The notes under the pieces were generated by a model, which worked only from the letters and a program-made list of their open reading frames with translations, was not told the origin of the DNA and did not search any database. Made by a program: the position numbers and the translations under genes. Of a stretch of DNA of 32,083 bases, positions 572-32,083 are shown one piece after another. Numbering within the stretch: the stretch's first letter is position 1; the number at the start of each line of letters is the position of its first letter. The stretch comes from Streptomyces sp. SID3343 (GTDB lineage Bacteria; Actinomycetota; Actinomycetes; Streptomycetales; Streptomycetaceae): contig NZ_WWJX01000822.1 in NCBI RefSeq assembly GCF_009865215.1, forward strand, positions 1 to 32,083, written 5' to 3'.

Positions 572-2590
572 ATGACCTCGCTCGACCGCCGCACGTTCGT
601 GGGCGCCGCCGCAGCCGCGACCGCGGCGACCGCCGCAGGCCTCCCGACCGGACAGGCCCACGCCGCCGAACCCGCCGAGCCCGGAGCCCCGGTCGCCGCC
701 ACCGGTCGCCCCGCCGGCCCCGGCAGCATCAAGGACGTCCGCCACGTGGTGATCCTGATGCAGGAGAACCGCAGCTTCGACCACTACTTCGGCGCGCTCG
801 CCGGCGTTCGCGGCTTCGGCGACCGCCAAGCCCTCGTCATGCCCAACGGCGACGACGTCTTTCGCCAGCCCGACCCCGGCCGCGCCGACGGCGGCTACCT
901 CCTGCCGTACCGGATGGACTCGACCAAGTACAACGCGCAGAACGCCGGCGGCCTGCCGCACGACTGGGCCACCGGGCACACCGCCGTCAACAACGGCGCG
1001 CAGAACCGGTGGATCGCGGCCAAGGGCGAGCGGGCCATGGGCTACTTCAACCGCGAGGACATCCCGTACCAGTACGCGCTCGCCGACGCGTTCACCGTGT
1101 GCGACTCCTACTTCACCTCGCTCAACGGACCCACCGACCCCAACCGGCTCTACCTGTGGTCCGGCACCGCCGGCCCCGGACGCGACGGCACGACCGGCCC
1201 GTGGACCGACAACACCCCGGTGACCGACAACCCCGTCGCCGACTGGACCACCTACGCCGAGCGCCTCCACAACGCGGGCGTGAGCTGGCGCGTCTACCAC
1301 AACCCGAGCAAGGACGAGCGCTACGGCGACTACGACGACAACGGCCTGTCGTACTTTCGCCAGTTCCACGCGTTCGCCAAGGACGACCCGCGCTACGTCA
1401 ACGCGATGACCAAGTGGGACCTGAGCGCGTTCGACGCGCACTGCAAGGACGGCACCCTGCCGACCGTCTCGTGGCTGGTCGCGCCCTACCTGTTCTGCGA
1501 GCATCCCGACGCCGGACCCAACTACGGCGCGCACTGGGTCGACACCGCGATGCGGTCGATGTTCGCCAACCCCGAGGTGTGGAAGCACACCGTGTTCCTG
1601 CTCATGTACGACGAGAACGACGGCTACTTCGACCACGTGATCCCGCCGCAGCCCGAGCCCGGCACCCCCGAGGAGTTCGTCGGGGGCCGACCGATCGGCC
1701 TCGGCACGCGCGTACCGCTGTGGATCGCCTCACCGTGGTCGCGCGGCGGCTACGTCAACTCGCAGGTCGCCGACCACACGTCGGTACTGCGCTTCCTGGA
1801 GGTGGTCACCGGCGTCCGCGAACCCAACATCTCCGCATGGCGCCGATCGGTGTGCGGCGACCTCACGTCGTGCTTCGACTTCACCCGGCCCGACTACTCG
1901 ATCCCCACGCTGCCCGACACCAACGCGCTGATCGCCAAGGCCGACGCCGCCAAGGCCCTGCCGGGCGTCAGGCTGCCCGACGTCGGCAAGCAGGAGATCC
2001 CCGTCCAGGAACCCGGCTTTCGCCCGCACCGCCCGCTGCCCTACCGCCCGTGGGCCGAGGCCACGGTGAACCGCGACAGCGGCAAGGTCGTGTGCACACT
2101 GACCAACAACGGCTCCGTCACCTACCACTTCACCGTCTTCCCCAACATCGCCATGCCGTTCGCGGGCACCCCGTTCACGGTGCCGGCCGGCAGGACGGCG
2201 ACCTACACATGGGACGCGTCGACCACCGACGGCCTCTACGACTTCAGCGTCCACGGCGCCGACGGCTTCGTCCGCCGCTTCGCCGGCAGCGTGGTGCGCG
2301 CGGGGCAGCGCGACATACCCGTGCCGTCGGTCGGCGCCGAGCTGCGCGGTCGCAAACCCGCCGAGACCAAGCTCGACCTGCGCCTGAGCAACGACGGCGA
2401 CACGCCCGTACGGTTCACCATCACGCCCAACGACTTCGGCGGCAGCCCGCGCACCCAGTGGCTCCAGGCACACGACCGCGACCGCGCCGAGTGGCCCGCC
2501 GACGCGCACGGCCGCTACGACGTCACGATCACCGCCGCGGACGGCTACACGCGCCGCTACGCCGGGACCGTACACCCGCAAACCCGCTGA
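572..2590 (+). CDS. Secreted phosphocholine-specific phospholipase C, Tat substrate
   Basis: This 672-residue protein matches the bacterial phospholipase C / acid phosphatase-like phosphoesterase family, which hydrolyses phosphatidylcholine-type lipids outside the cell. The N-terminus is a twin-arginine signal (SLDRRTFVGAAAAA, then an Ala-rich stretch ending near QAHA, about residue 32). The conserved QENRSFDHYFG motif starts near residue 64, followed by NGPTDPNR and later metal/phosphate-site motifs such as YDENDGYFDHV. After about residue 490 there are two beta-rich C-terminal repeats of the DUF756 type (PYRPWAEATVNRDSG... and LRGRKPAETKLDLRLSNDG...), as usual for this family. The ATG is preceded by a GAAAGG-like ribosome site. 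A strong hairpin just after the stop separates it from the convergent SDR gene. Length is normal for the family. Confidence 0.93.
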   Translation: MTSLDRRTFVGAAAAATAATAAGLPTGQAHAAEPAEPGAPVAATGRPAGPGSIKDVRHVVILMQENRSFDHYFGALAGVRGFGDRQALVMPNGDDVFRQPDPGRADGGYLLPYRMDSTKYNAQNAGGLPHDWATGHTAVNNGAQNRWIAAKGERAMGYFNREDIPYQYALADAFTVCDSYFTSLNGPTDPNRLYLWSGTAGPGRDGTTGPWTDNTPVTDNPVADWTTYAERLHNAGVSWRVYHNPSKDERYGDYDDNGLSYFRQFHAFAKDDPRYVNAMTKWDLSAFDAHCKDGTLPTVSWLVAPYLFCEHPDAGPNYGAHWVDTAMRSMFANPEVWKHTVFLLMYDENDGYFDHVIPPQPEPGTPEEFVGGRPIGLGTRVPLWIASPWSRGGYVNSQVADHTSVLRFLEVVTGVREPNISAWRRSVCGDLTSCFDFTRPDYSIPTLPDTNALIAKADAAKALPGVRLPDVGKQEIPVQEPGFRPHRPLPYRPWAEATVNRDSGKVVCTLTNNGSVTYHFTVFPNIAMPFAGTPFTVPAGRTATYTWDASTTDGLYDFSVHGADGFVRRFAGSVVRAGQRDIPVPSVGAELRGRKPAETKLDLRLSNDGDTPVRFTITPNDFGGSPRTQWLQAHDRDRAEWPADAHGRYDVTITAADGYTRRYAGTVHPQTR

Positions 2591-5923: not shown

Positions 5924-6219
5924 GTCGCGGACACGGGCGACGGCCCGGACCCGCCGGTGAGGATCGCGCACCGCGAGGCCGTCCGCGCCGGTCGCGCCGT
6001 CGGCACGGCGTGCGCGACCACCCGCTACCGGTCGTGCCGCCGTGCCATCGCGTACTCCGCACCGGCGGCCCCTTGGGCGGTTACCCGGGCGGCCTTTCGG
6101 TCGAGGCCACACTCCCGGCCCCGGAATCGACGGCCCGACCGGCGGCGCGGTCGTCCCCGAACGAGAAGCGGCGCCCCCGCGGGGGCGAAGGAGTCTCGGG
6201 CACGTCAGGAGCGGGCACG
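5924..6219. other. Gap without a recognisable gene; palindrome near 6172
   Basis: Between ogt and the DUF5997 stop no frame shows convincing coding content. The only structure is the perfect palindrome CGCCCCCGCGGGGGCG at 6172-6187, which could end transcription from either side, and the start of a 15-bp repeat at 6196. Confidence 0.5.
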
Positions 6220-21086: not shown

Positions 21087-21680
21087 TCACGCGGAGGCGA
21101 AGGAGGCCCCCACGAAGGCGAAGGAGCTTTCGAACAGCTCGTCCAGGGGGCGTTCGCCGTTGTGCCTGGCCCAGGTGAGCAGCACTTCGACGACGATGGT
21201 GCTCAACAGGCTGACCAGCACGCGGACTTCGAAGTCGCTCGGCTCGCGGCCCAAGCGTTGGGCCACCAGGCTCGCCACGAACCCGGTCTCCTCGCTCTGG
21301 TGTTGGGGGAGTCGGGACCGCAGCGCGGGGACCCGGTCGATGAGCTGCATCCGCTGGAGCAGCTCGTCGTGGTCCTGCGCGAGGGCCGTTCGGCTCAGAT
21401 CGATGATCCCGTTGCGCACCGCGTCGACGACTTGTTCGTCCGCGGGGCGCGCGTTGATGGCGTGCTCGATGAGCGAGTCGTACTCGTCGGCGAACACGAC
21501 GTGTTCCTTGGACGGGAAATACCGAAAGAAAGTGCTGGGGGCGATATCGGAGGCGTCGGCGATGTGCTCGATCGTCGTCTCCTCGTAGCCGAATTCGAGG
21601 AACAGTCGCAGAGCTTCCTGGCGGATCACCTTGCGGGTTCTGATCTTCTTGCGCTCACGCAGCCCGGGGGCGGAAGTCAT
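21087..21680 (-). CDS. TetR/AcrR family regulator next to DHA2 exporter
   Basis: The 197-residue protein begins MTSAPGLRERKKIRTRKVIRQEALRLFLEFGYEETTIEHIADASDIAPSTFFRYFPSKEHVVF, the helix-turn-helix common to actinomycete regulators of drug exporters, followed by a helical ligand domain (ALRSRLPQHQSEETGFVASLVAQRLGREPSDFEVRVLV). It is downstream of the DHA2 exporter on the same strand and probably controls that exporter from the dyad upstream of it. Two starts are possible: ATG 21680 (family start, GAAGGGAC site) or ATG 21764, which overlaps the exporter stop as ATGA and would add a 28-residue Asp/Ala-rich leader. The former is preferred on homology. Confidence 0.87.
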   Translation of the reverse strand: MTSAPGLRERKKIRTRKVIRQEALRLFLEFGYEETTIEHIADASDIAPSTFFRYFPSKEHVVFADEYDSLIEHAINARPADEQVVDAVRNGIIDLSRTALAQDHDELLQRMQLIDRVPALRSRLPQHQSEETGFVASLVAQRLGREPSDFEVRVLVSLLSTIVVEVLLTWARHNGERPLDELFESSFAFVGASFASA

Positions 21681-21760
21681 GTGGCAGGTCCCTTCGTTGC
21701 GCGAGGGGTCGGACCCGCCGTCCGCGGCATCGGTCGGCGCCGCCGCATCGGGCACGAGAC

Positions 21761-23326
21761 TCATGTGTGCTCGGCGCCCTCGGCGAAAGCCGGGTCGTTT
21801 CCCGCCTCGGCCGTCTCGCGAACGGTTTCTTTCGGAAGCAGTATGGCGACCACTACGGCGCCAAGGAAGGCGACAATACTACAGACTATCGAAAGAGAGC
21901 TCATCCCATCTGTGAATGCTTTGAAGGACGCCTGGCGCAGTGAGTCGCCGGCCGCGCCCATCGTGTCGGCGACGGCCGAAGCGGCGGCCACGGAGTCGCG
22001 CACCGTCGCCTGGGTCTGTGGCGGAAGGTCACCGGCGGCGCTGCCGACCCGGTCGGAGTAGATCGAGGCGAGCATGCTGCCCAGGACGGCGATGCCGACC
22101 GCGCCGCCGACCTGGCGCAGGGCCGTGGTCAGGGCCGTACCGCTGCCCCGGCGAGCCGGTGGGAGTACCGCCATCACCATCTCCACGGCGGGAGGCAGCG
22201 CCGCGCCCAGTCCGATGCCGAGCACGACCATCGCGACGACGGTGGTCGAGTACGTGCTGGTCTCGTCGATGCCGGCCATGACCACCAAGCCCAGTCCGAG
22301 GACGAACAGGCCGCTGCCCACCGTCCAACGCACGCCGATGCGCGATACCAGGAGGTCGCTCAGCACGGCGCCGAGCATGTAGGCGACCACCAGCGGGAGC
22401 AGCCTCATCCCGGTGCCGAAGGCCGAGTTGCCCAGCACGACTTGGAGGTATTGCGGGATGACGAACAGGATGCCGTAGAGCACGAACGAGACGACGGTCA
22501 GTGCCACGGTCGCGACGGTGAAGGTGCGGTCGCGGAACAGGGGAAGGTCGATCAGGGGTTCCCGGGTCCGGCCCTCCCACAGCACGAACGTCACCAGCAG
22601 GATCGACCCGGCGGCGAGCGAGGTGACGATGACCGTGTCGGTCCAGCCCCGTCCGGGCCCTTCGATGATGCCGTACAGCAGGCTGCACAGACCCGCGGTG
22701 GAGAGCAGGCCGCCGACGAGGTCGACTCCGGGGCGGCCGGGTGCACGCGATTCCGGCAGCAGGAACGCGGCGCACACGACACCCACGGCGATCACCGGCA
22801 CGTTGATCAGGAAGACCGATCCCCACCAGAAGTTTTCCACGAGGTAACCACCGAGGATGGGGCCGAGCGGCAGACCCAGAACCATGCCCGTCGTCCACAA
22901 GGCGATGGCCTTGCCGCGTTCCTCCTCGGGGAACATCGCGGGCAGGATGGACAAGCTCAGTGGTGTGATGATCGCGGCGCCGAGCCCGAGCAGCGCCCTG
23001 GTCCAGATGAGGGTGGTCGCGTCCGGCGACCACGCGGACGCGGCGGAGGCGGCGCCGAAGATCAGCAGGCCGATCAGGATGAGCCGCTTGCGCCCGTAGC
23101 GGTCGCCCAGGACGCCGGCGGGGAGCAGAAGCCCGGCGAAGACGAGCGTGTACGAGTCGGCGATCCACTGGAGATCCCCGTTGTCGGCTTCCAGTTCGGT
23201 GGCCAGGGTCGGCAGGGCGACGTTGAGGATCGTGATGTCCAGGCCGATGACCAGCAGGCTCACCACGAGAGCGCTGAGTGCCCACCAGCGCTTGGGGTAC
23301 GGCACGGTCGCCGGATTGTCGTCCAC
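21761..23326 (-). CDS. DHA2 family drug-export MFS transporter (EmrB/QacA type)
   Basis: The 521-residue protein has 14 predicted helices and DHA2 signatures: LLVIGLDITILNVALPTLATEL in the first helix, QWIADSYTLVFAGLLLPAGVLGDRYGRKRLIL (loop 2-3 motif), the antiporter motif C region LGLPLGPILGGYLVENFWWGSVFLINVP, and TALRQVGGAVGIAVLGSM. Such pumps export drugs or cell-made antibiotics using protons. The GTG start has a strong GGAGGGAG site. It follows the biosynthetic cluster on the same strand and overlaps or nearly abuts a TetR gene, so product export/self-protection is likely. It probably has its own promoter in the AT-rich stretch 23355-23412. Confidence 0.92.
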   Translation of the reverse strand: MDDNPATVPYPKRWWALSALVVSLLVIGLDITILNVALPTLATELEADNGDLQWIADSYTLVFAGLLLPAGVLGDRYGRKRLILIGLLIFGAASAASAWSPDATTLIWTRALLGLGAAIITPLSLSILPAMFPEEERGKAIALWTTGMVLGLPLGPILGGYLVENFWWGSVFLINVPVIAVGVVCAAFLLPESRAPGRPGVDLVGGLLSTAGLCSLLYGIIEGPGRGWTDTVIVTSLAAGSILLVTFVLWEGRTREPLIDLPLFRDRTFTVATVALTVVSFVLYGILFVIPQYLQVVLGNSAFGTGMRLLPLVVAYMLGAVLSDLLVSRIGVRWTVGSGLFVLGLGLVVMAGIDETSTYSTTVVAMVVLGIGLGAALPPAVEMVMAVLPPARRGSGTALTTALRQVGGAVGIAVLGSMLASIYSDRVGSAAGDLPPQTQATVRDSVAAASAVADTMGAAGDSLRQASFKAFTDGMSSLSIVCSIVAFLGAVVVAILLPKETVRETAEAGNDPAFAEGAEHT

Positions 23327-23540: not shown

Positions 23541-23560
23541 CGCGCGGGATCGCGCGGGAT
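23541..23560. repeat. 10-bp tandem duplication abutting the adenylation gene stop
   Basis: CGCGCGGGAT occurs twice in a row (23541 and 23551); its last base is the first base of the minus-strand stop triplet (23560-23562). No convincing terminator hairpin is seen in 23413-23559. Confidence 0.7.
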
Positions 23561-25092
23561 CAGGAGAAGTGCCCGCCGGCCGCCTTCGCCAGCGCGCCGC
23601 GGTCGAGCTTCCCGGACATGGTCACGGGCAACTCCCGTACCGGAACGAACAAGCCGGGCACCATGTGCTTGGGCAGCAGGGCCGCGAGCCGGTGCCGCAG
23701 CACCGACGCGATCTCGGCCTCCGGTGCCGGCCCGGCGGCAGCCGCCGGCACGAAGCACGCGGCCAACACGGGATCGCCCTTGATCGATTCGGTGACCACC
23801 ACGGCGCACTCCCGCACCTCGGGCTGTCCGGCGAGGACCGACTCGATCTCCCCCAGCTCGATGCGGAAACCGCGGATCTTGACCTGGTCGTCGCGGCGGC
23901 CCAGGAACTCGTACTCCCCGTCGGGGCGTTCCACCGCGTAGTCGCCGCTGCGATACCAGAGCACGTCCTCACCCAGGCCCGGCACCCGCAGGAAGCGCTG
24001 CGCGGTCAGGTCCGGACGCCCGAGATATCCGTCCGCGACCTGGGCCCCGGCGATATGGATCTCGCCCGGAAGACCCGGCGGTACGGGCCGACCGTCCTCC
24101 AACAGTGCCAAGCGCAGTCCCGGCAGAGGCGCCCCGATCGGGGTGCCCAGGCCCGGAGCCCGAAGTTCCGCCGGCGACAGGAGCTTGACCGTGGCGTGCA
24201 CGGTGATCTCGGTGATCCCGTACATGTTGTACAGGCGCGCGTTCGGCGCGAGCGCGAGGTCGTACCAGCGCAACAGCACCTGAGGACCGACGGCTTCGCC
24301 CCCGAAGACCACATAGCGCAGCCTGGGCAGCGGCAGCGGCCGCTCCTCCAGGGAACGCACCACGAACCCGAAGACCGACGGCACCTGGCTCAGCACGGTC
24401 ACGCCCCGATCCGCCAGGAGACGGACGAAGGCCGCCGAGTCCGTGGCCGCCTCGTGCGGGACGACGACGACCCGCCCGCCGGAGAGCAGCGCCCCCCAGA
24501 TCTCCCACACACTGAAGTCGAAGCTGTGCGAGTGGAAGAACGACCACACGTCCTCAGGCCCCACGTCGTACGTCGCGGAGCACGCGTCGAGAAGGGCCAG
24601 GATCTGGGAGTGGCGGATCAGCACCCCCTTCGGATCGCCGGTCGATCCCGACGTGTGAATGACGTACGCGGCATCGGACGGCACATCGTGGCCCGGCGCA
24701 CTCCCACCGGCCGCGCTCTCCACCGCGAGGGTGCCGTCGGGATCCTCGACGACCACGTGGCGCAGCCCGACATCCTCGACGATGTACGCCCGCCGCGACT
24801 TCGGATAGCGCGGATCCACCGGCACATAGCCCGACCCGTGCCGCCAGATGCCCAGGATGCCGACCACGGCCCGCCATCCACGCCGCGTCCGGAGCCCGAC
24901 CAACCCGCCGGGAGCGACGCCGTCGTCGGCGAGCGCCTCGGCCACCTCCCCGGCCGCGTCCCACAGTTGGGCGTAGGTGAGCGAGTGCGCGTCGTCCTCG
25001 ACCGCGATCGCGTCGGGGTGTTCGGCGAGCCGCTCGGCGAACACCTCCTCGATCCTTGCGCTGCCCCCTGCGGGCCGTCCCGCGTTCGCCAT
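23560..25092 (-). CDS. Stand-alone NRPS adenylation protein, predicted threonine-activating
   Basis: The 510-residue protein is an amino acid adenylation domain without a carrier domain. Core motifs are clear: A3 HTSGSTGDPKGV near 146-157, A4 FDFSVWEIWGALL at 191-203, A5 NMYGITEITVHAT at 289-301, A7/A8 YRSGDYAVERPDGEYEFLGRRDDQVKIRGFRIELGEIE, and A10 PVTMSGKLDR with Lys495. Aligning to GrsA, the pocket residues are D192 F193 W196 S235 V262 G264 M290 V298 H299 K495, i.e. DFWSVGMVHK, two conservative changes from the threonine code DFWNIGMVHK. It must load a carrier protein in trans, as known for SyrB1-like systems. ATG with a GGAAGAA site; last gene of the minus-strand cluster, 53 bp after the KAS III gene. 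Confidence 0.92.
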   Translation of the reverse strand: MANAGRPAGGSARIEEVFAERLAEHPDAIAVEDDAHSLTYAQLWDAAGEVAEALADDGVAPGGLVGLRTRRGWRAVVGILGIWRHGSGYVPVDPRYPKSRRAYIVEDVGLRHVVVEDPDGTLAVESAAGGSAPGHDVPSDAAYVIHTSGSTGDPKGVLIRHSQILALLDACSATYDVGPEDVWSFFHSHSFDFSVWEIWGALLSGGRVVVVPHEAATDSAAFVRLLADRGVTVLSQVPSVFGFVVRSLEERPLPLPRLRYVVFGGEAVGPQVLLRWYDLALAPNARLYNMYGITEITVHATVKLLSPAELRAPGLGTPIGAPLPGLRLALLEDGRPVPPGLPGEIHIAGAQVADGYLGRPDLTAQRFLRVPGLGEDVLWYRSGDYAVERPDGEYEFLGRRDDQVKIRGFRIELGEIESVLAGQPEVRECAVVVTESIKGDPVLAACFVPAAAAGPAPEAEIASVLRHRLAALLPKHMVPGLFVPVRELPVTMSGKLDRGALAKAAGGHFS

Positions 25093-25145: not shown

Positions 25146-26150
25146 TCACGGCAACGCCACGACCTGGGCCGCGTGCACGACGCCCGCGCCGAAGCCGGCC
25201 AACAGGGCCAGGCCCCCGCTCGGCGCGTCGCCCCGGGTGAGGAGCGCGTCCATGGCGAGCGGAATGGAGGCCGCGGAGGTGTTTCCGGCCTCGACGATGT
25301 CGCGTGCCACCGCGACGTGGGGCGGCAGGTCCAGGGCCTTGGCCGCCGCCTCCACGATGCGCAGGTTCGCCTGATGCGGGATGAAAGCGGACAGGTCGTC
25401 CACCCCGACGCCCGCGGCACTCAGCGCCTGACGGCCGATCAGCGGCACCGTCTCCCGGGCCCAACGAAAGACCTCCGGGCCCGCCATCCGCAACGTCGGC
25501 CACGGATCGGGACTTTCCCGCGTGTGCAGCCACGAGCGGGAGTGGGCGATCAGAGCGTGCCGTGCCCCGTCCGACCCCCACACCACCGGACCGATCCCGG
25601 GCTCCTCGGCCGGACCCACGACCACCGCCCCGGCCCCGTCGCCGAACAGGAACGCGGTGCCGCGGTCGTGCGGATCGACGATGTCGCTCATCCGCTCGGT
25701 CCCCAGCACCACGACGTGGTCGGCGGCACCCGAACGGACCAGCGAGTCCGCCAGCGCGAGGGCGTGGCAAAACCCCGCACAGGCCGCCCCGACGTCCATC
25801 GCCGCCGCACCGTGCGCGCCGATCAACTGCGCCACGCGTGGCGCGGCGGGCGGCGCCTGCTCCAGATGCGACATCGACGCCAGCAGCACGACGCCGACCC
25901 GGGCCGGGTCCACACCCGACTGGGCCAGCGCCTTCAGGGCCGCCGCCGCGCCCATCGAGACGACCGTGTCCCCGGCGTCGGCGAATCTGCGGGTGGCGAT
26001 TCCCGAACGCCTACGGATCCACTCGTCACTGGAGTCGATGCCCGCGGCCACCTCGTCGTTGCCCACCACGCGCGCCGGCCGGAACGCGCCGACCCCCAGG
26101 ATGCGCGCTCCGTTCGCCCCCCGGGACGAGCGCAGCGCCCGCCCGCTCAC
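25146..26150 (-). CDS. 3-oxoacyl-ACP synthase III (KAS III) family protein
   Basis: The 334-residue protein has the FabH fold: ILGVGAFRPARVVGNDEVA at the start, WIRRRSGIATRRFA, and the full catalytic triad Cys124 (DVGAACAGFC), His259 (FIPHQANLRI) and Asn290 (EAGNTSAAS). FGDGAGAVVV is also typical. Family members condense an acyl-CoA with malonyl-ACP or act as acyltransferases in antibiotic clusters; the intact His/Asn favours condensation. The GTG start overlaps the stop of the FAAL gene (GTGA). Placed between an acyl-AMP ligase and carboxylase subunits, it likely extends the activated fatty acid to build a starter or alkyl extender unit, rather than serving primary fatty acid synthesis. Confidence 0.93.
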   Translation of the reverse strand: MSGRALRSSRGANGARILGVGAFRPARVVGNDEVAAGIDSSDEWIRRRSGIATRRFADAGDTVVSMGAAAALKALAQSGVDPARVGVVLLASMSHLEQAPPAAPRVAQLIGAHGAAAMDVGAACAGFCHALALADSLVRSGAADHVVVLGTERMSDIVDPHDRGTAFLFGDGAGAVVVGPAEEPGIGPVVWGSDGARHALIAHSRSWLHTRESPDPWPTLRMAGPEVFRWARETVPLIGRQALSAAGVGVDDLSAFIPHQANLRIVEAAAKALDLPPHVAVARDIVEAGNTSAASIPLAMDALLTRGDAPSGGLALLAGFGAGVVHAAQVVALP

Positions 26151-27910
26151 GACGGCCGCCCGGTCCGCGTAACGTCCGCCAGGGCGCCGTCACGCAACAG
26201 CGTGCGGCACACGCCGCGTTGCACCTTGCCGCTGGAGGTCTTGGGCACGGCGCCCGGTCGCACCAGGACCACGTCGTCCACTTCCAGCCGCTGACCGTCC
26301 ATCACCGCGTCCCGCACGCGCCGGCGCAACTCCTGTGCGCCGACGGCCTTGAGGACCCGGCCGTCGGCCTCGAGCACCACCACCAGTCGCTCGGCGGCGC
26401 CGTCGTCCACGCCGAACGCGGCGGCGCAGTTGGGCCGCAGCCCGGGGGCGGCGGATTCGGCGGACAATTCGATGTCCTGTGGGTAGTAGTTGCGACCCTT
26501 GCGGATCACCACGTCCTTGAGCCGGCCGGTGACGTACAACTCGCCGTCGTGCAGGAACCCCAGGTCACCGGTGCGCAGATGGCCCTCGCCCTCCTGCGGA
26601 CCACCCCGGACCCGGGCCCGGAAGGTCAGTTCGCTCTCCTGCGCCCGACCCCGGTAGCCCTTCGCGACGCACGGGCCGGCGATCCAGATCTCGCCGACCC
26701 GCTCGGGTGGGCAGGCCGCGAGGGTCAGCGGATCCACGATCCGCACGGTGGTACCCGGTACCGCGACGCCGCTGCCCACCACCGGCACGGCCGCCTCGGC
26801 CCCTTCGGCCGACACCTCCACGGTGCCCTGCGCCAACGAGGGGGCCGACACCCACAGCACGGCGGGCGCACGGTCCTGCCGGCTGCCGGTGGCCTTGAGC
26901 GTGTTCTCGGCAAGGCCGTAGCCGGGGCACATGGCCCGCGGGGCGAAACCCACCGACGCGAACGTCTCGGTGAACGCGCGCACCACGTGCGGGCGGACCG
27001 GCTCCGCGCCGTTGACCGCGACACGCCACGACGACAGGTCCAACTGTGTGCCGGCCCTGCCCTCGGCCGCGGCGCGCACGCACAGTTCGTAGGCGAAACT
27101 GGGCGCGGCCGCATGGGTGCCACGAAAGCGCGATATCGCCTCCAGCCAGCGGGCCGGCCGGCGTACGAAGGCCTCGGGCGCCATCAGATACGCGGGGATG
27201 CCGGCCCACAACGGGAACACCACGCCGAACAGCAGGCCCATGTCGTGGAAGATCGGCAGCCAGGACACCACGGCGCCGTCGGAACCGGCCGGCCACAGTT
27301 CGTCCGTCTCGGCGGCGTTGTGCAGGAAGTTGGCGTGGGTGACCATCACCCCCTTGGGGTCGCCGGTCGACCCGGAGGTGTACTGGAGCAGCGCGAGGTC
27401 GTCCGGACGCACGGCGGGCCCCGACCACCCGCGGCCCGCGTCCGAGGGGATCGACTCGGTGTCCGTCAACGTCAGACCGGCCAGCTCCGGTCGATCGCCG
27501 AACCGCTCCTCCAACTCGCGCTTGACCGCGCCGGTGGTCAAGACCACGGACGCGCCCGCGTCGTCGGCGATGCGACGCAGCCGTTGCAACCCGCGAACCC
27601 GGGTGGGCACCTGTACGGGGGCGCCGGTGACGCCGGCGTACAGGCAGCCCGCCAGCGTGCGGACGAACTCCAAGGCGGTCGGATACAGCAGCACCGCATT
27701 GCCCCCGGCCAGGCCCGCGGCGCACAGGGCCGCTGCCCGCGCCCGGGCCGCGGTGTCGAGTTCGCCGTAGGTCAGGGTCTCCTCGGGTTGCTCCCCGTCG
27801 CGCAAGAAGATGTAGGCGACCTGATCGGGCCGCTCCCGGGCGTGCAGTGTCAGCGCGTCGGTGAGGGTACGCACGCCGGTCATCGGCAGATGGAGTTCCG
27901 TGGTGCTCAT
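26147..27910 (-). CDS. Fatty acyl-AMP ligase (FAAL)
   Basis: The 587-residue protein is a long-chain fatty acid adenylating enzyme of the FAAL type. It has LLQYTSGSTGDPKGVMVTHANFLHN (P-loop), VSWLPIFHDMGLLFGVVFPLWAGIPAYLMAPEAFVRRPARWLEAISRF (FAAL-specific), CPGYGLAENTL, RTGDLGFLHDGELYVTGRLKDVVIRKGRNYYPQDIE and C-terminal PKTSSGKVQR with its Lys. The YYPQDIE hinge and overall match distinguish FAAL from CoA ligases. It would form acyl-AMP and pass the chain to an acyl or peptidyl carrier protein, initiating a lipopeptide or feeding the KAS III next to it. No carrier protein is encoded beside it. ATG with an ACGAGGTA site. Confidence 0.94.
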   Translation of the reverse strand: MSTTELHLPMTGVRTLTDALTLHARERPDQVAYIFLRDGEQPEETLTYGELDTAARARAAALCAAGLAGGNAVLLYPTALEFVRTLAGCLYAGVTGAPVQVPTRVRGLQRLRRIADDAGASVVLTTGAVKRELEERFGDRPELAGLTLTDTESIPSDAGRGWSGPAVRPDDLALLQYTSGSTGDPKGVMVTHANFLHNAAETDELWPAGSDGAVVSWLPIFHDMGLLFGVVFPLWAGIPAYLMAPEAFVRRPARWLEAISRFRGTHAAAPSFAYELCVRAAAEGRAGTQLDLSSWRVAVNGAEPVRPHVVRAFTETFASVGFAPRAMCPGYGLAENTLKATGSRQDRAPAVLWVSAPSLAQGTVEVSAEGAEAAVPVVGSGVAVPGTTVRIVDPLTLAACPPERVGEIWIAGPCVAKGYRGRAQESELTFRARVRGGPQEGEGHLRTGDLGFLHDGELYVTGRLKDVVIRKGRNYYPQDIELSAESAAPGLRPNCAAAFGVDDGAAERLVVVLEADGRVLKAVGAQELRRRVRDAVMDGQRLEVDDVVLVRPGAVPKTSSGKVQRGVCRTLLRDGALADVTRTGRPS

Positions 27911-27975
27911 AAGCGGAGTACCTCGTTTCGCGTTCCGGAAATGGTGGGCGAGACGATCCGGTGCCGGCCCGCCCC

Positions 27976-28050
27976 GGACCCGAAGGCGGGCCCTCGAACC
28001 CGAAGGCGGGCCCCGGATCCGAAGGCGATCCCCCGGACCCGGGGCGGGCC
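27976..28050. repeat. 20-bp tandem repeat between AccE and FAAL genes
   Basis: The word CCGAAGGCGGGCCC recurs at 20-bp steps (about 27980, 28000, and as CCGAAGGCGATCCC near 28019), with a last degenerate GACCCGGGGCGGGCCCC. It fills most of the 151-bp gap between the two genes, the largest gap inside the cluster operon. Confidence 0.75.
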
Positions 28051-28061
28051 CCGATCGTGGC

Positions 28062-28343
28062 TCAGCCCCGATGCGGGTGGGACCCCGCCCCCCAGCCCCC
28101 GCCCGACCACTGGGCGGGACGCATCAGCGCCTCGCGCGCGTGCCTGGTCCAGGCGCAGGATCGGGGCGGCTGCGCCGGCGCGACCGCGGCGGTCACGGCC
28201 GCCAGACCGAGGAGAAGCGCCTTCAGTTCCTCCTCGGTCGGGTTGCCGCGCACGACGGTGACGGTGTCCGGGGCGGCCGGGGGAGGAATGGACGCGGTGC
28301 CGCTGCGTGCGACGGGCCCCGCGGCCTTGCCGTGGGCGGTCAC
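28062..28343 (-). CDS. Acyl-CoA carboxylase epsilon subunit
   Basis: The 93-residue protein shows the short AccE-type motif [26 protein letters not shown] in its middle and a Trp-rich C-terminal end (W...[25 protein letters not shown]), as in actinomycete epsilon subunits such as AccE/PccE. These small proteins bind and activate the beta/alpha carboxylase complex. The first 35 residues are a flexible Ala/Pro leader. The GTG start overlaps the stop of the beta-subunit gene (GTGA). Its presence with a beta subunit in a biosynthetic operon indicates a dedicated carboxylase; the biotinylated alpha subunit must come from elsewhere. Confidence 0.88.
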
Positions 28344-29962
28344 AACGGGATGTTTCCGTGCTTCTTGGGAAGGACCGCGACGCGCTTGGTACGCAGGGCG
28401 GCCAGCGCCCGACGTACCTGCTCGCGCGTCTCGGAAGGCAGGATCACCGCGTCCACATAGCCGCGTTCGGCGGCCGTGTACGGGTTGCACAGCGAATCCT
28501 CGTACGCGCGGCGCAGCCGATCGCTCTCCGCCTTCGGGTCGGCCGCGTTCGCGATCTCGCCTCGGTGGAGCACACTCACCGCTCCCTCGCCGCCCATGAC
28601 CGCGATCTGCGCGGTGGGCCACGCGAAATTGACGTCGACGCCGAGATGCTTGGAACCCATGACGGCGTATCCGCCGCCGAACGCCTTGCGGATCACCACG
28701 GTCACCGTCGGCACGGTCGCCTCGGAGTAGGCGTAGATGAGCTTGGCCCCGCGGCGGACGATCCCCAACCGTTCCTGGTCCGCGCCGGGCAGGAAGCCCG
28801 GCACGTCGGCGAACGTCACGATGGGTATCCCGAAGGAGTCGCAAAAGCGGACGAACCGCGCCGCCTTCTCGCTCGCGTCGATGTCCACCACGCCGGCCAA
28901 GTGCATGGGTTGATTGGCCACCACGCCGACGCTGCGGCCGTCGATCCGGCCCAGGCCGCAGATCATGTTGCGCGCGAACAACGGCTGGATCTCCAGGAGT
29001 TCGCCCTCGTCGACGACGCCACGGATCACCTCGTGCATGTCGTAGGCCTGGTTGGGGTCGTCCGGCACGACCGTGTCGAGCCGGCCGCGGTCGTCGTGCG
29101 CGGCGTCGGAGTCGGCCGGCGCGTAGTGCGGGCAATCGCTCATGTTGTTGGACGGCAGGTAGGACAGCAGGGTCCGGACGAAGTCGAAGGCGTCCTTCTC
29201 GTCCCCGGCCAGGTAGTGGGCGTTGCCGGACACCTCGTTGTGGGTGCGCGCCCCACCCAGTGCCTCGCGGTCCACCACCTCGCCGGTGACCGCCTTGAGC
29301 ACGTCGGGGCCGGTCACGAACATGTGCGACGTGCGGTCGACCATCACCACGAAGTCGGTGATGGCGGGGGCGTAGACGGCACCGCCGGCGCACGGGCCCA
29401 TCAGCAGCGAGATCTGCGGCACCACGCCCGACACCTCGGTGTGCCGGCGGCCGAGTTCGGCGTAGTAGGCCAGCGAGACCACGCCCTCCTGGATCCTCGC
29501 CCCGCCCGAGTCGTTGATGCCGACGATCGGGCATCCGGTGCGGACGGCGAAGTCCATCACCTTGAGGATCTTTTCCCCGAACACCTCGCCCAGGCTGCCG
29601 CCGAACACGGTGAAATCCTGGGCGTAGACGCACACCTGGCGTCCGTCGATGGTGCCGTAGCCGGTGATGACGCCGTCGCCGTAGGGGCGGTTGCGGTCCA
29701 TGCCGAAGCTGTGGCAGCGGTGTCGGGCCAGCGCGTCGAATTCCACGAAGGACGCGTCGTCGAGCAGCTCCTCCACCCGTTCGCGGGCGGTGAGTTTGCC
29801 CTTGGCGTGCTGCTTTTCGATCGCCGCCGTCGAGGAGGCGTGCCAGGCCTCCTCCCGGCGGCGTTCCAGCTCGCGGATGCGGCCGGCGGTGGTCGCCGGA
29901 CCCGGCACCCTTGCCGTGCCCGCGGCGACCTCGGTCCCCCGGCCGCCGCCTTCGTCGCTCAC
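28340..29962 (-). CDS. Acyl-CoA carboxylase beta subunit (carboxyltransferase)
   Basis: The 540-residue protein is a PccB/AccB-type carboxyltransferase. It shows [45 protein letters not shown], the first oxyanion region [34 protein letters not shown], and the second domain with [48 protein letters not shown] and [20 protein letters not shown]. Length is normal. Such subunits carboxylate acetyl-, propionyl- or longer acyl-CoA to malonyl-type extender units; chain specificity cannot be read safely here. The GTG at 29962 overlaps the thioesterase stop (GTGA); an in-frame GTG at 29968 is the alternative. It is paired with its own epsilon subunit downstream. Confidence 0.94.
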
Positions 29963-30792
29963 TGCCACGACGCACCGCCCGTTGCCCGCCCGGGCGACGC
30001 GCCGCGCGCCCCACGCTCGTCGAGTGCCGCCCGCAGGTCGCCGACGAACGCGGACACCACGGAGGCGAAATGGTCCATCAGGTAGAAGTGCCGTCCGGGA
30101 TACTGCCGAACGGTCACCTCAGCCGAGCTCTCCCGGCGCCACGTCTGAAGGCCGCCCTCCTCGACGAACGGGTCGGCGACCCCACCGAACACCGACAGCG
30201 GTATGTCCAGGGGGAGTTCGTCGCGGAAACTGTGGCTCTCCACGACGGCGAAGTCGGCTCGCAGCGTGGGCATGATCAACGAGAGCAGATCGGGGGCGTT
30301 GAGCACATCCTCCGGCATGCCGCCCAGCCGCCGCACCGTGTCGAGGAACTCGGCGTCGGACAAGCCGCCGTACCGCACCCGCGGAAGGCCGCCGCGCGGT
30401 GACGGCCAGCCGGACAGGCCGAGCACGATCGGGGTCGGTGATCCGCGCCGGCGCAGTTCCCGGGCCAGCTCGAACGACAACAGCGCGCCCATGCTGTGCC
30501 CGAAGAAAGCGAACGGGCGATCGTCGAGCCGGGATTCGACGACGTCGGCGAGGCCGGTGACCAGCGTCGCGCAGTCGTGCACCGGCGGTTCCGCGATGCG
30601 GTCCTGGCGGCCGGGAAGCTGCACGGCACGCAACTCCACCATGGGCGGCAGGTGGCGCGTCCACGGGCGGAACACGGCCGCGCCGCTCCCGGCGAAGGGG
30701 AACGCGTACAGCGCGACGGCGGCGTACGGACGGTCCTCGAAGGACCGGAACCACAGTGCGCCGGGATCGGTCGAGGCAACAGGCACGGTCAC
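29959..30792 (-). CDS. Type II thioesterase (alpha/beta hydrolase)
   Basis: The 277-residue protein is a type II thioesterase of the GrsT/RifR kind. It has [17 protein letters not shown] at the N-terminus, [18 protein letters not shown], the nucleophile elbow [18 protein letters not shown] with Ser100, catalytic Asp in FGGVADPFV and His in [11 protein letters not shown]. Such enzymes clear stalled or mis-primed acyl groups from carrier domains of NRPS/PKS lines. The GTG start at 30792 overlaps the NRPS stop as GTGA and has AAGGAGC upstream; the frame stays open further but only as an antisense-like Arg/Pro stretch inside the NRPS gene. Its partner is the adjacent NRPS. Confidence 0.93.
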
Positions 30793-32083
30793 CGCTCCTT
30801 CCGGGTCGGCGTCGCGCGCATGAGGCCGCGCACCTGCTCGGCCAGCGTGCTCACGTGCGGAGGGTTGAGCAACGAGAGGTGGTTGCCGGGAGTGTCGAAG
30901 ATGCGCAGGTGCGGGACGTGCACGTCCCAGCCCAGGGAGCGGTCGGATCGGTAGAACTCGGGATCGTTCAGGTGCGGGGGCATCGGTTCCAGACCGATGT
31001 AGAGCCACACCGGTCCGGCATAGGGCCCCGGCCGGTAGTGCCGGATCATCTCGCGGACCTGTTGCACGTGTTCGACCGTGCCGCGCAGGATCTGCGCCGC
31101 GGTGTCGCCCTGGAAGGCCTCGTCGATGCGCTCGTAGAGCATCTCGTTCTGCCGATCCGCGTCGAGACCACGCAGTTCGTCCTCGGTGAGCGCGATCTCG
31201 CGACCGAAGATCAGCTCGAAGACGTGGGCGAAGTGCACGGTTCGGTAGGCCAGCAGATCCTGCTCGCTGATGTCCGTGGGAGGGGCGCCCGCCAATGACG
31301 ACTCGAACATCGTCACGAGTTCGACCTGCTCGCCCGCCTCGGTCAGTTGCCGGGCCGTCTCGTACGCCACGAGTCCGCCGAAGGAGAGGCCGCCCAGTCG
31401 GTAGGGGCCGTGCGCACAGGTCGCCCGCACCGCGGCCGCGTAGTGCGCGGCGAGTTCCTCGACGGTGGTGAAGCGACCCAGGTCCGGTGTCTCCAGCATG
31501 TGCACGGGGACGTCGGGCGCGAGCTTTTCGGCGAGGAAGCGGTAGACGAGAAGGTTGCCGCCGGAGGGGTGGACCACGAAGTACGGCGGTTCGGTGCCCT
31601 CGGGCTGGAGCGTCACGACCGGCGAACGCCCCTTGCCTTCCCGGCCCTTGCGCAGTACTGCGGCCAACTCCGCGACGGTGGGGTTGTTGAGCAGGTCGGC
31701 CAGGCCGATGTCGCAGTTGAACTGGCGTTGCAGACGGGAGATCGCGCGCATGGCCACCAGGGAGTGACCGCCGAGGGCGAAGAAGTTGTCGTCGATCCCG
31801 ATCGGGCGCACGCCCAGCACGTCCGTCCAGACCTGCGCCACGATCAGTTCGGTGGTGTCCCGGGGGGCGACCGCCTCGCGGTCGCGGTCGCGGCCCGGCC
31901 CGCGCAGGGTGCGCAGCAGGGCCCGGTCGACGCGGCCGTCCCTGGTCGTGGGCAGTTCGGGCAGGACGAGGTAGTCCTGCGGTACCGCGCGCGCCGGCAG
32001 GCCCTGGTCCGCGACCGCCGCCAGGTGGGCCGACAGCCGCGCGTCGCGGCGCTGGGTCACCGGTTCGTTGGCTCGCGGTGTCT
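30789..32083 (-). CDS. NRPS terminal module, 3' part (A end - PCP - thioesterase), continues beyond window
   Basis: The frame is open to the right edge, so only the last 431 or so residues are seen. First comes the end of an adenylation domain (DARLSAHLAAVADQGLPARAVP, YLVLPELPTTRDGRVDRALL), then a carrier domain (VAQVWTDVLGVRPIGIDDNFFALGGHSLVAMRAI, Ser of GGHS carrying the phosphopantetheine), then a type I thioesterase (PYFVVHPSGGNLLVYRFLA, YRLGGLSFGGLVAYETARQL with the active Ser, and TPGNHLSLLNPPHV with the His). The A10 motif reads GRVDR instead of GKVDR, so the catalytic lysine is replaced by Arg, and A9 is also atypical. At the usual thioesterase Asp site it reads MFESS (Glu). This module releases the finished product. 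First visible gene of the operon. Confidence 0.93.
   Translation of the reverse strand, partial: TPRANEPVTQRRDARLSAHLAAVADQGLPARAVPQDYLVLPELPTTRDGRVDRALLRTLRGPGRDRDREAVAPRDTTELIVAQVWTDVLGVRPIGIDDNFFALGGHSLVAMRAISRLQRQFNCDIGLADLLNNPTVAELAAVLRKGREGKGRSPVVTLQPEGTEPPYFVVHPSGGNLLVYRFLAEKLAPDVPVHMLETPDLGRFTTVEELAAHYAAAVRATCAHGPYRLGGLSFGGLVAYETARQLTEAGEQVELVTMFESSLAGAPPTDISEQDLLAYRTVHFAHVFELIFGREIALTEDELRGLDADRQNEMLYERIDEAFQGDTAAQILRGTVEHVQQVREMIRHYRPGPYAGPVWLYIGLEPMPPHLNDPEFYRSDRSLGWDVHVPHLRIFDTPGNHLSLLNPPHVSTLAEQVRGLMRATPTRKER

Follow-up and report, generated by a model that had tools for sequence, protein, structure and literature searches.

A predicted alkylmalonyl-CoA cassette with a biotin carboxylase, tied to a split polyketide–peptide cluster of Streptomyces sp. 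SID3343

How does a polyketide pathway obtain a medium-chain alkylmalonyl extender unit when no crotonyl-CoA reductase/carboxylase (CCR) is found in its cluster? The question is raised by four genes of Streptomyces sp. SID3343 on contig NZ_WWJX01000822.1 (G000:C1616), which was analysed over its whole length of 32,083 nucleotides (hereafter the window) and belongs to an 11 Mb genome in 1645 contigs with 6.69% contamination. The genes encode, in a co-directional run on the minus strand with intact and uninterrupted frames, the beta and epsilon subunits of an acyl-CoA carboxylase, a ligase of the fatty acyl-AMP ligase (FAAL) type and a β-ketoacyl-acyl carrier protein (ACP) synthase III (KAS III). 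The initial annotation had taken these consecutive genes for an acyl-unit cassette in which the biotin carboxylase replaces a CCR and carboxylates a medium-chain acyl-CoA directly at its alpha carbon. The run is present as described, and sequence comparisons support the proposed replacement through two residues of the carboxylase pocket, a survey of 60 ligase loci in which carboxylase and CCR never coincide, a search of the cluster that found no CCR, and the precedent of stambomycin. We consider it likely (probability roughly 0.78) that the cassette makes alkylmalonyl-CoA by such direct carboxylation, and that one acyltransferase (AT) domain, most likely that of module 3, of a five-module polyketide synthase–nonribosomal peptide synthetase (PKS–NRPS) uses it.

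The first line of evidence comes from the acyl pocket of the beta subunit. The 2016 MccB paper (PMC5187497) names two beta sites, changed from Phe to Gly and from Asp to Ala, as determinants of medium-chain specificity. In our alignment the window beta has Gly173 at the position of MccB Gly161 and Ala435 at the position of PccB Asp421/422, the same two letters as the MccB sequence (5inf), whereas short-chain carboxylases have Phe at the first site and Asp or Ile at the second. The short-chain pattern was seen in five betas (L196 and L197 of this genome, the second copy of L117, L123 and L137); the PccB-type copy of the same genome (C756) has Phe/Asp and the copy on C448 Phe/Ile. The best PDB match of the window beta is 3ibb, the PccB D422A mutant, and its alignment to S. 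coelicolor PccB is nearly full-length. A further structure, 9j0c (796 bits to the window beta), likewise has small residues at both aligned sites, Val and Gly, and is the best PDB match of another beta of the same clade (L041; clade A below); a paper search by this PDB code found no paper naming it. On the strength of its two sites, the window beta is predicted to be medium-chain specific.

An MccB orthologue it is not, because it falls in a separate well-supported clade, and this candidate assignment was rejected. In a tree of 29 betas, which leaves out the remote L198 and L199 and has no row for MccB itself, clade A comprises 17 betas including that of the window (support 100/99), with the betas of the window and of Streptomyces sulphureus as sisters (99/96), whereas clade B comprises seven (99/99), among them the MccB-like L118 (1091 bits to the MccB structure 5inf). 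When L198 and L199 are included, support is 90/99 for clade A and 89/100 for clade B. The node that joins the two clades, and with it the choice between a single and a double origin of medium-chain betas, has a support of only 78/75. In S. sulphureus the alpha, beta and epsilon genes are kept together in the cluster, the alpha gene, with its biotin carboxylase and biotinyl domains, following that of the adenylation (A) domain. The 82% match on C1034, of AccA type, is the probable alpha partner of the window beta.

The second line of evidence is the distribution of carboxylating enzymes around related ligases. Sixty-nine ligase loci including that of the window were collected as a capped and similarity-ranked rather than random sample, and 60 were distinct after nine same-contig duplicates had been dropped. 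L182 (46%) was dropped ahead of the locus counts; of the best 80 loci retained from a capped scan 40 were examined, and the other 40 (38–47% identical and, by their titles, outside Actinomycetota) were left out. Partners were sought within 7 kb of the ligase, and a locus without one may have it farther away or past the contig end. A beta with a residue other than Phe at the first site was found at 24 of the 60 loci, a CCR at 12, a beta cut off ahead of the diagnostic residues at two and neither partner at 22, while no locus had both. Independence would predict 4.8 loci with both (hypergeometric 0.0009); for the 49 loci whose two flanks each reach 4 kb (17 beta, 12 CCR, none with both) the value is 0.0024, and neither figure is corrected for relatedness. 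L143 combines a CCR with a fragment of a Phe-type beta. All 24 betas chosen as non-Phe at the first site have Gly or Ala at the second (11 Val/Gly, 7 Gly/Ala, 3 Ile/Gly, 2 Gly/Gly and 1 Ala/Ala). Partners switch at least four times on a quick ligase tree, and two of these switches are forced by well-supported branches. A KAS III of at least 55% identity lies near the ligase at 6 of the 24 beta loci, 7 of the 12 CCR loci and 11 of the 24 remaining loci.

Within the cluster itself, our search of the window found no CCR, in agreement with the initial annotation, and a CCR in the remaining cluster, which would have spoken for another route, was likewise not found in C988, C1258, the part of C1504 from base 6000 onward or the 90–180 kb stretch of S. 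sulphureus, with a gap between contigs remaining. The single weak match of the CCR search in those pieces is the enoylreductase (ER) domain of module 3. The genome's one CCR over cutoff, on C1116, was rejected as a cluster member because its neighbours, encoding methylmalonyl-CoA mutase, MeaB, a thiolase and a glyoxalase-fold protein, look like primary metabolism.

Which assembly line would receive the unit? In a family sample of 297 genomes, 38 (that of the window included) had a ligase match at 1e-130 or better, and one of the 29 whose surroundings were compared had the same gene run: S. sulphureus DSM 40104 (G296:C11, NZ_KB905823.1). Because the homologues stand in the same order in this organism of another genus, with KAS III as a remnant, the cassette is no chance arrangement. 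The S. sulphureus cluster lies on one contig and comprises five one-module PKS genes followed by an NRPS gene. Modules 1 and 2 each read ketosynthase (KS)-AT-ketoreductase (KR)-ACP, module 3 KS-AT-dehydratase (DH)-ER-KR-ACP, module 4 KS-AT-DH-KR-ACP and module 5 KS-AT-carrier-condensation-type domain, and the NRPS consists of condensation (C), A, methyltransferase (MT), peptidyl carrier protein (PCP) and thioesterase (TE) domains in the order C-A-MT-PCP-TE. The PKS modules that the initial annotation suggested looking for beyond the window were found through this cluster, by similarity: C1504 matches module 1 (58–60%), C988 matches module 2 from the AT onward (57%), module 3 (63–64%) and the start of module 4 (67%), and C1258 matches the end of module 4 (64%), module 5 (62%) and the NRPS start (63–64%). 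The window holds the NRPS end (69% to the S. sulphureus NRPS), and the gap between it and C1258, at the methyltransferase region, is about 630 residues long. Together the four contigs cover pieces of all five modules. Of the product type foreseen beforehand, a lipopeptide or hybrid, the PKS–NRPS hybrid with an alkyl side chain has stood, and lipopeptide is the poorer description.

The AT motifs of modules 1 to 5 read VAFH, VAFH, GAGH, LASH/IASH and HAFH in the two genomes; HAFH is described as marking malonyl ATs and YASH methylmalonyl ATs. Module 3 is the odd one among the five, its AT reading GHSMG and GAGH in both genomes. Of the 11 beta loci whose AT could be read, 5 combine GHSMG with GPAH or GPGH, as do none of 5 CCR loci and none of 6 others; some of these loci are closely related. 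Judged from these motifs, module 3 is the most likely point at which the alkylmalonyl unit would enter.

The other two cassette enzymes would provide the acyl-CoA. The KAS III triad is intact (Cys124/His259/Asn290), as had been stated at the outset. In S. sulphureus, however, the gene is a remnant between ligase and A domain (L115 11811–12119), with the C-terminal third only and without the cysteine half, and the rest of the cassette has been kept despite this loss. Deletion of revR is said, in PMC5187497, to lower one reveromycin relative to others. Because of the remnant and the revR effect, we read KAS III as probably an auxiliary supplier of the medium-chain acid. For the ligase, FAAL models are among the best NCBIfam matches, none of them over its own cutoff, and the best PDB matches, named FAALs among them, span residues 17–580. 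It shares one clade with the ligases beside the MccB-type betas L118, L058, L121 and L129. RevS, which SamR0482 resembles, is reported in the same paper (PMC5187497) to be a medium-chain CoA ligase; the kinship of the window ligase to these two was judged via the clade of ligases near MccB-type betas and not from their own sequences.

We propose the following route. KAS III would start short chains, reserved for this purpose, on the fatty acid synthase of the host, giving medium-chain acids, and the FAAL-clade ligase would, by analogy with RevS and SamR0482, activate such an acid by joining it to CoA. Together with its dedicated epsilon and an AccA-type alpha of the genome, the beta subunit would then carboxylate the acyl-CoA at the alpha carbon, as the opened acyl pocket suggests. 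One AT, most likely that of module 3 (GAGH; KS-AT-DH-ER-KR-ACP), would take up the alkylmalonyl-CoA, and the five-module PKS would pass the chain to the single NRPS module with its TE.

Several observations weigh against this route. The match of the window beta to the MccB pocket is partial: Tyr157 and Tyr187 of MccB are both kept, but three further pocket residues are PccB-like (Leu191, Ile396 and Phe399 of MccB are Ile, Ala and Ile, as in PccB), and overall the subunit is nearer PccB (811 bits) than MccB (684 bits). The remote paralogues L198 and L199 of this genome (34% identical) show Leu/Ser and Phe/Tyr there; a residue other than Phe is thus by itself no proof of the medium-chain type. 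At L123 (3943–5550) and L137 (4086–5627) the sole nearby beta, about 4.4 kb off, is of the Phe/Asp (propionyl) type and no CCR lies within 7 kb, possibly reflecting a different use of the ligase; the 22 of 60 loci with neither partner count on the same side. In addition, the cluster of the window was assembled from contigs via similarity and not physical linkage. Finally, the window ligase is FAAL-type in sequence, and true FAALs form acyl-AMP for carrier proteins, not CoA thioesters.

The last point leads to an alternative in which the ligase loads a fatty-acyl starter onto an ACP or the first KS, KAS III elongates this starter, and the carboxylase does no more than provide malonyl- or methylmalonyl-CoA. 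FAALs commonly supply starters. Module 1 starts with a KS, whose cysteine motif is present (read in S. sulphureus), and neither genome showed a loading domain ahead of it (L114 16339–19653; G296:C11 from 121016); the starter must therefore come from outside, and the ligase could also feed it. We nevertheless consider this alternative unlikely. The two beta pocket residues are unlike those of short-chain carboxylases, and elsewhere ligases of the same clade are paired with CCRs. No small stand-alone carrier protein turned up when S. sulphureus 118–166 kb and the window at 20–32 kb were scanned with crude motifs, and S. sulphureus has retained ligase and carboxylase after losing KAS III.

KAS III might instead be an acyltransferase that primes the first KS or releases the product without forming a C–C bond. 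Some KAS III-like enzymes do form bonds of other types, e.g. AfcL, but the triad of AfcL is Cys/His/Asp, according to PMC12186527, as against Cys/His/Asn in the window. With FabH subfamily models matching over cutoff and the gene degenerate in S. sulphureus, we regard such a role as highly improbable. That the cassette is a relic that has decayed or fallen silent, or else a contamination artefact, as the fragmented assembly and the split of the cluster over contigs might suggest, is scarcely credible given open frames with a third-position GC content of 0.88–0.90 (beta, ligase, KAS III and NRPS end), retained key motifs, and pieces on C988, C1258 and C1504 that follow the S. sulphureus cluster order at 57–67%.

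A cassette of the kind preferred here, with a carboxylase and without a CCR, is already known from stambomycin. According to PMC5187497, the S. ambofaciens system has a RevS-like ligase and an alpha subunit from primary metabolism; its beta has Gly161, with Ala where PccB has Asp421, and no CCR is clustered with it. It differs in that MccB orthologues belong to clade B and the window beta to clade A; moreover, KAS III and a dedicated epsilon are added here, and the assembly line here is a small PKS with an NRPS module at its end. The armJKLN set of armeniaspirol offers a FabH homologue, a medium-chain ligase, a carboxylating enzyme and an epsilon, with 2-alkylmalonyl-CoA as the product proposed in PMC10142417; its assembly line differs, and ArmL is likened by its description there and not by a sequence check of its class. 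Reveromycin revR/revS/revT shares the pair of KAS III and ligase, whereas its carboxylation is by a CCR (PMC5187497) and the window cassette has a biotin carboxylase with no clustered CCR found.

What happens at the peptide end of the assembly line? The domain after the last PKS carrier belongs to the condensation family (PF00668) and reaches 42 bits, below the cutoff of 74, with TIGR01720, a model typical of epimerase domains. This epimerase-like domain (L103 1999–3438, minus strand; G296:C11:146365–147783) has HHxxxDN in place of HHxxxDG and, at 1e-60, has matches in two of 391 genomes of the order, that of the window and S. sulphureus. In both genomes the A3 motif of the integrated A domain (L103 1–1989, minus strand; window 31900–32081) is degraded (TSGAED), and Arg stands in place of the A10 Lys. 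This domain is interrupted by a methyltransferase insertion in S. sulphureus, where the window genome has its contig gap. In the stand-alone A domain, A3 and A10 are both intact, and this domain probably charges the NRPS module in trans. Judged by eye, its specificity residues look like those of threonine-activating domains. Tentatively, at somewhat less than even odds, these features may define an undescribed PKS–NRPS class, represented by the same two genomes, with an epimerase-like end, an integrated A domain that is only a frame for the inserted methyltransferase, and a stand-alone A domain charging in trans; the cassette would feed this assembly line, and its product would bear a single alkyl branch of medium chain length and end in an N-methyl amino acid.

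No description of such an assembly line was found in the open-access literature searched, with a reservation for pyridinopyrone. A pyridinopyrone cluster of five PKS genes and one NRPS gene has been proposed for S. sulphureus, according to PMC10268602, and may or may not equal the present one, since S. sulphureus has further PKS loci (C4, C5, C9). If they are the same, the NRPS-first order with a nicotinate starter mismatches the gene order here.

Table 1 Genes of the conserved run in the window, with supporting matches (percentages refer to the S. sulphureus counterpart)
Feature	Position	Strand	Evidence
NRPS C-terminal part (A-domain end, PCP, TE)	30789–32083	-	PF00550 and PF00975; cut by contig end
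Type II thioesterase	29959–30786	-	PF00975, E 6e-47; 64%
Acyl-CoA carboxylase beta (carboxyltransferase)	28340–29968	-	PF01039, E 7.7e-191; 73%
Acyl-CoA carboxylase epsilon	28062–28343	-	PF13822, E 2.2e-10, 41.5 bits (cutoff 25)
FAAL-type medium-chain acid ligase (predicted)	26147–27910	-	PF00501, E 3.5e-69; 69%
KAS III (FabH-type)	25146–26150	-	PF08545, PF08541; PRK09352 and TIGR00747 over cutoff
Stand-alone NRPS A domain	23560–25092	-	TIGR01733, 386 bits, over cutoff; 65%
DHA2-family major facilitator superfamily exporter	21761–23326	-	TIGR00711 over cutoff; 70%
TetR-family regulator, final gene of the compared run	21087–21764	-	PF00440, 48 bits (cutoff 24); 58%

The genes of the run are listed in Table 1. 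The beta reading frame as listed opens with a GTG at 29968, a candidate start six bases past the 29962 given initially; the GTG start of epsilon overlaps the beta stop codon, and the ligase and KAS III genes overlap as well (26150/26147). The stand-alone A domain, the exporter and the TetR gene are part of the same conserved run as the cassette. Outside the cluster, at window 572–2590 on the plus strand, lies a phosphoesterase-family gene with a bacterial phospholipase C C-terminal domain.

The 2016 MccB paper names three clusters for such carboxylases (PMC5187497). With the 24 loci sampled here, it becomes testable whether biotin carboxylase and CCR can replace each other as modules that follow the same ligase. 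The window beta, which joins the two MccB residues to a PccB-like background, would show how many of the residues are needed, and medium-chain carboxylases are useful for putting chosen, also taggable, side chains on polyketides. Since the split cluster is tied to a one-contig relative in a culturable type strain, its product can be sought.
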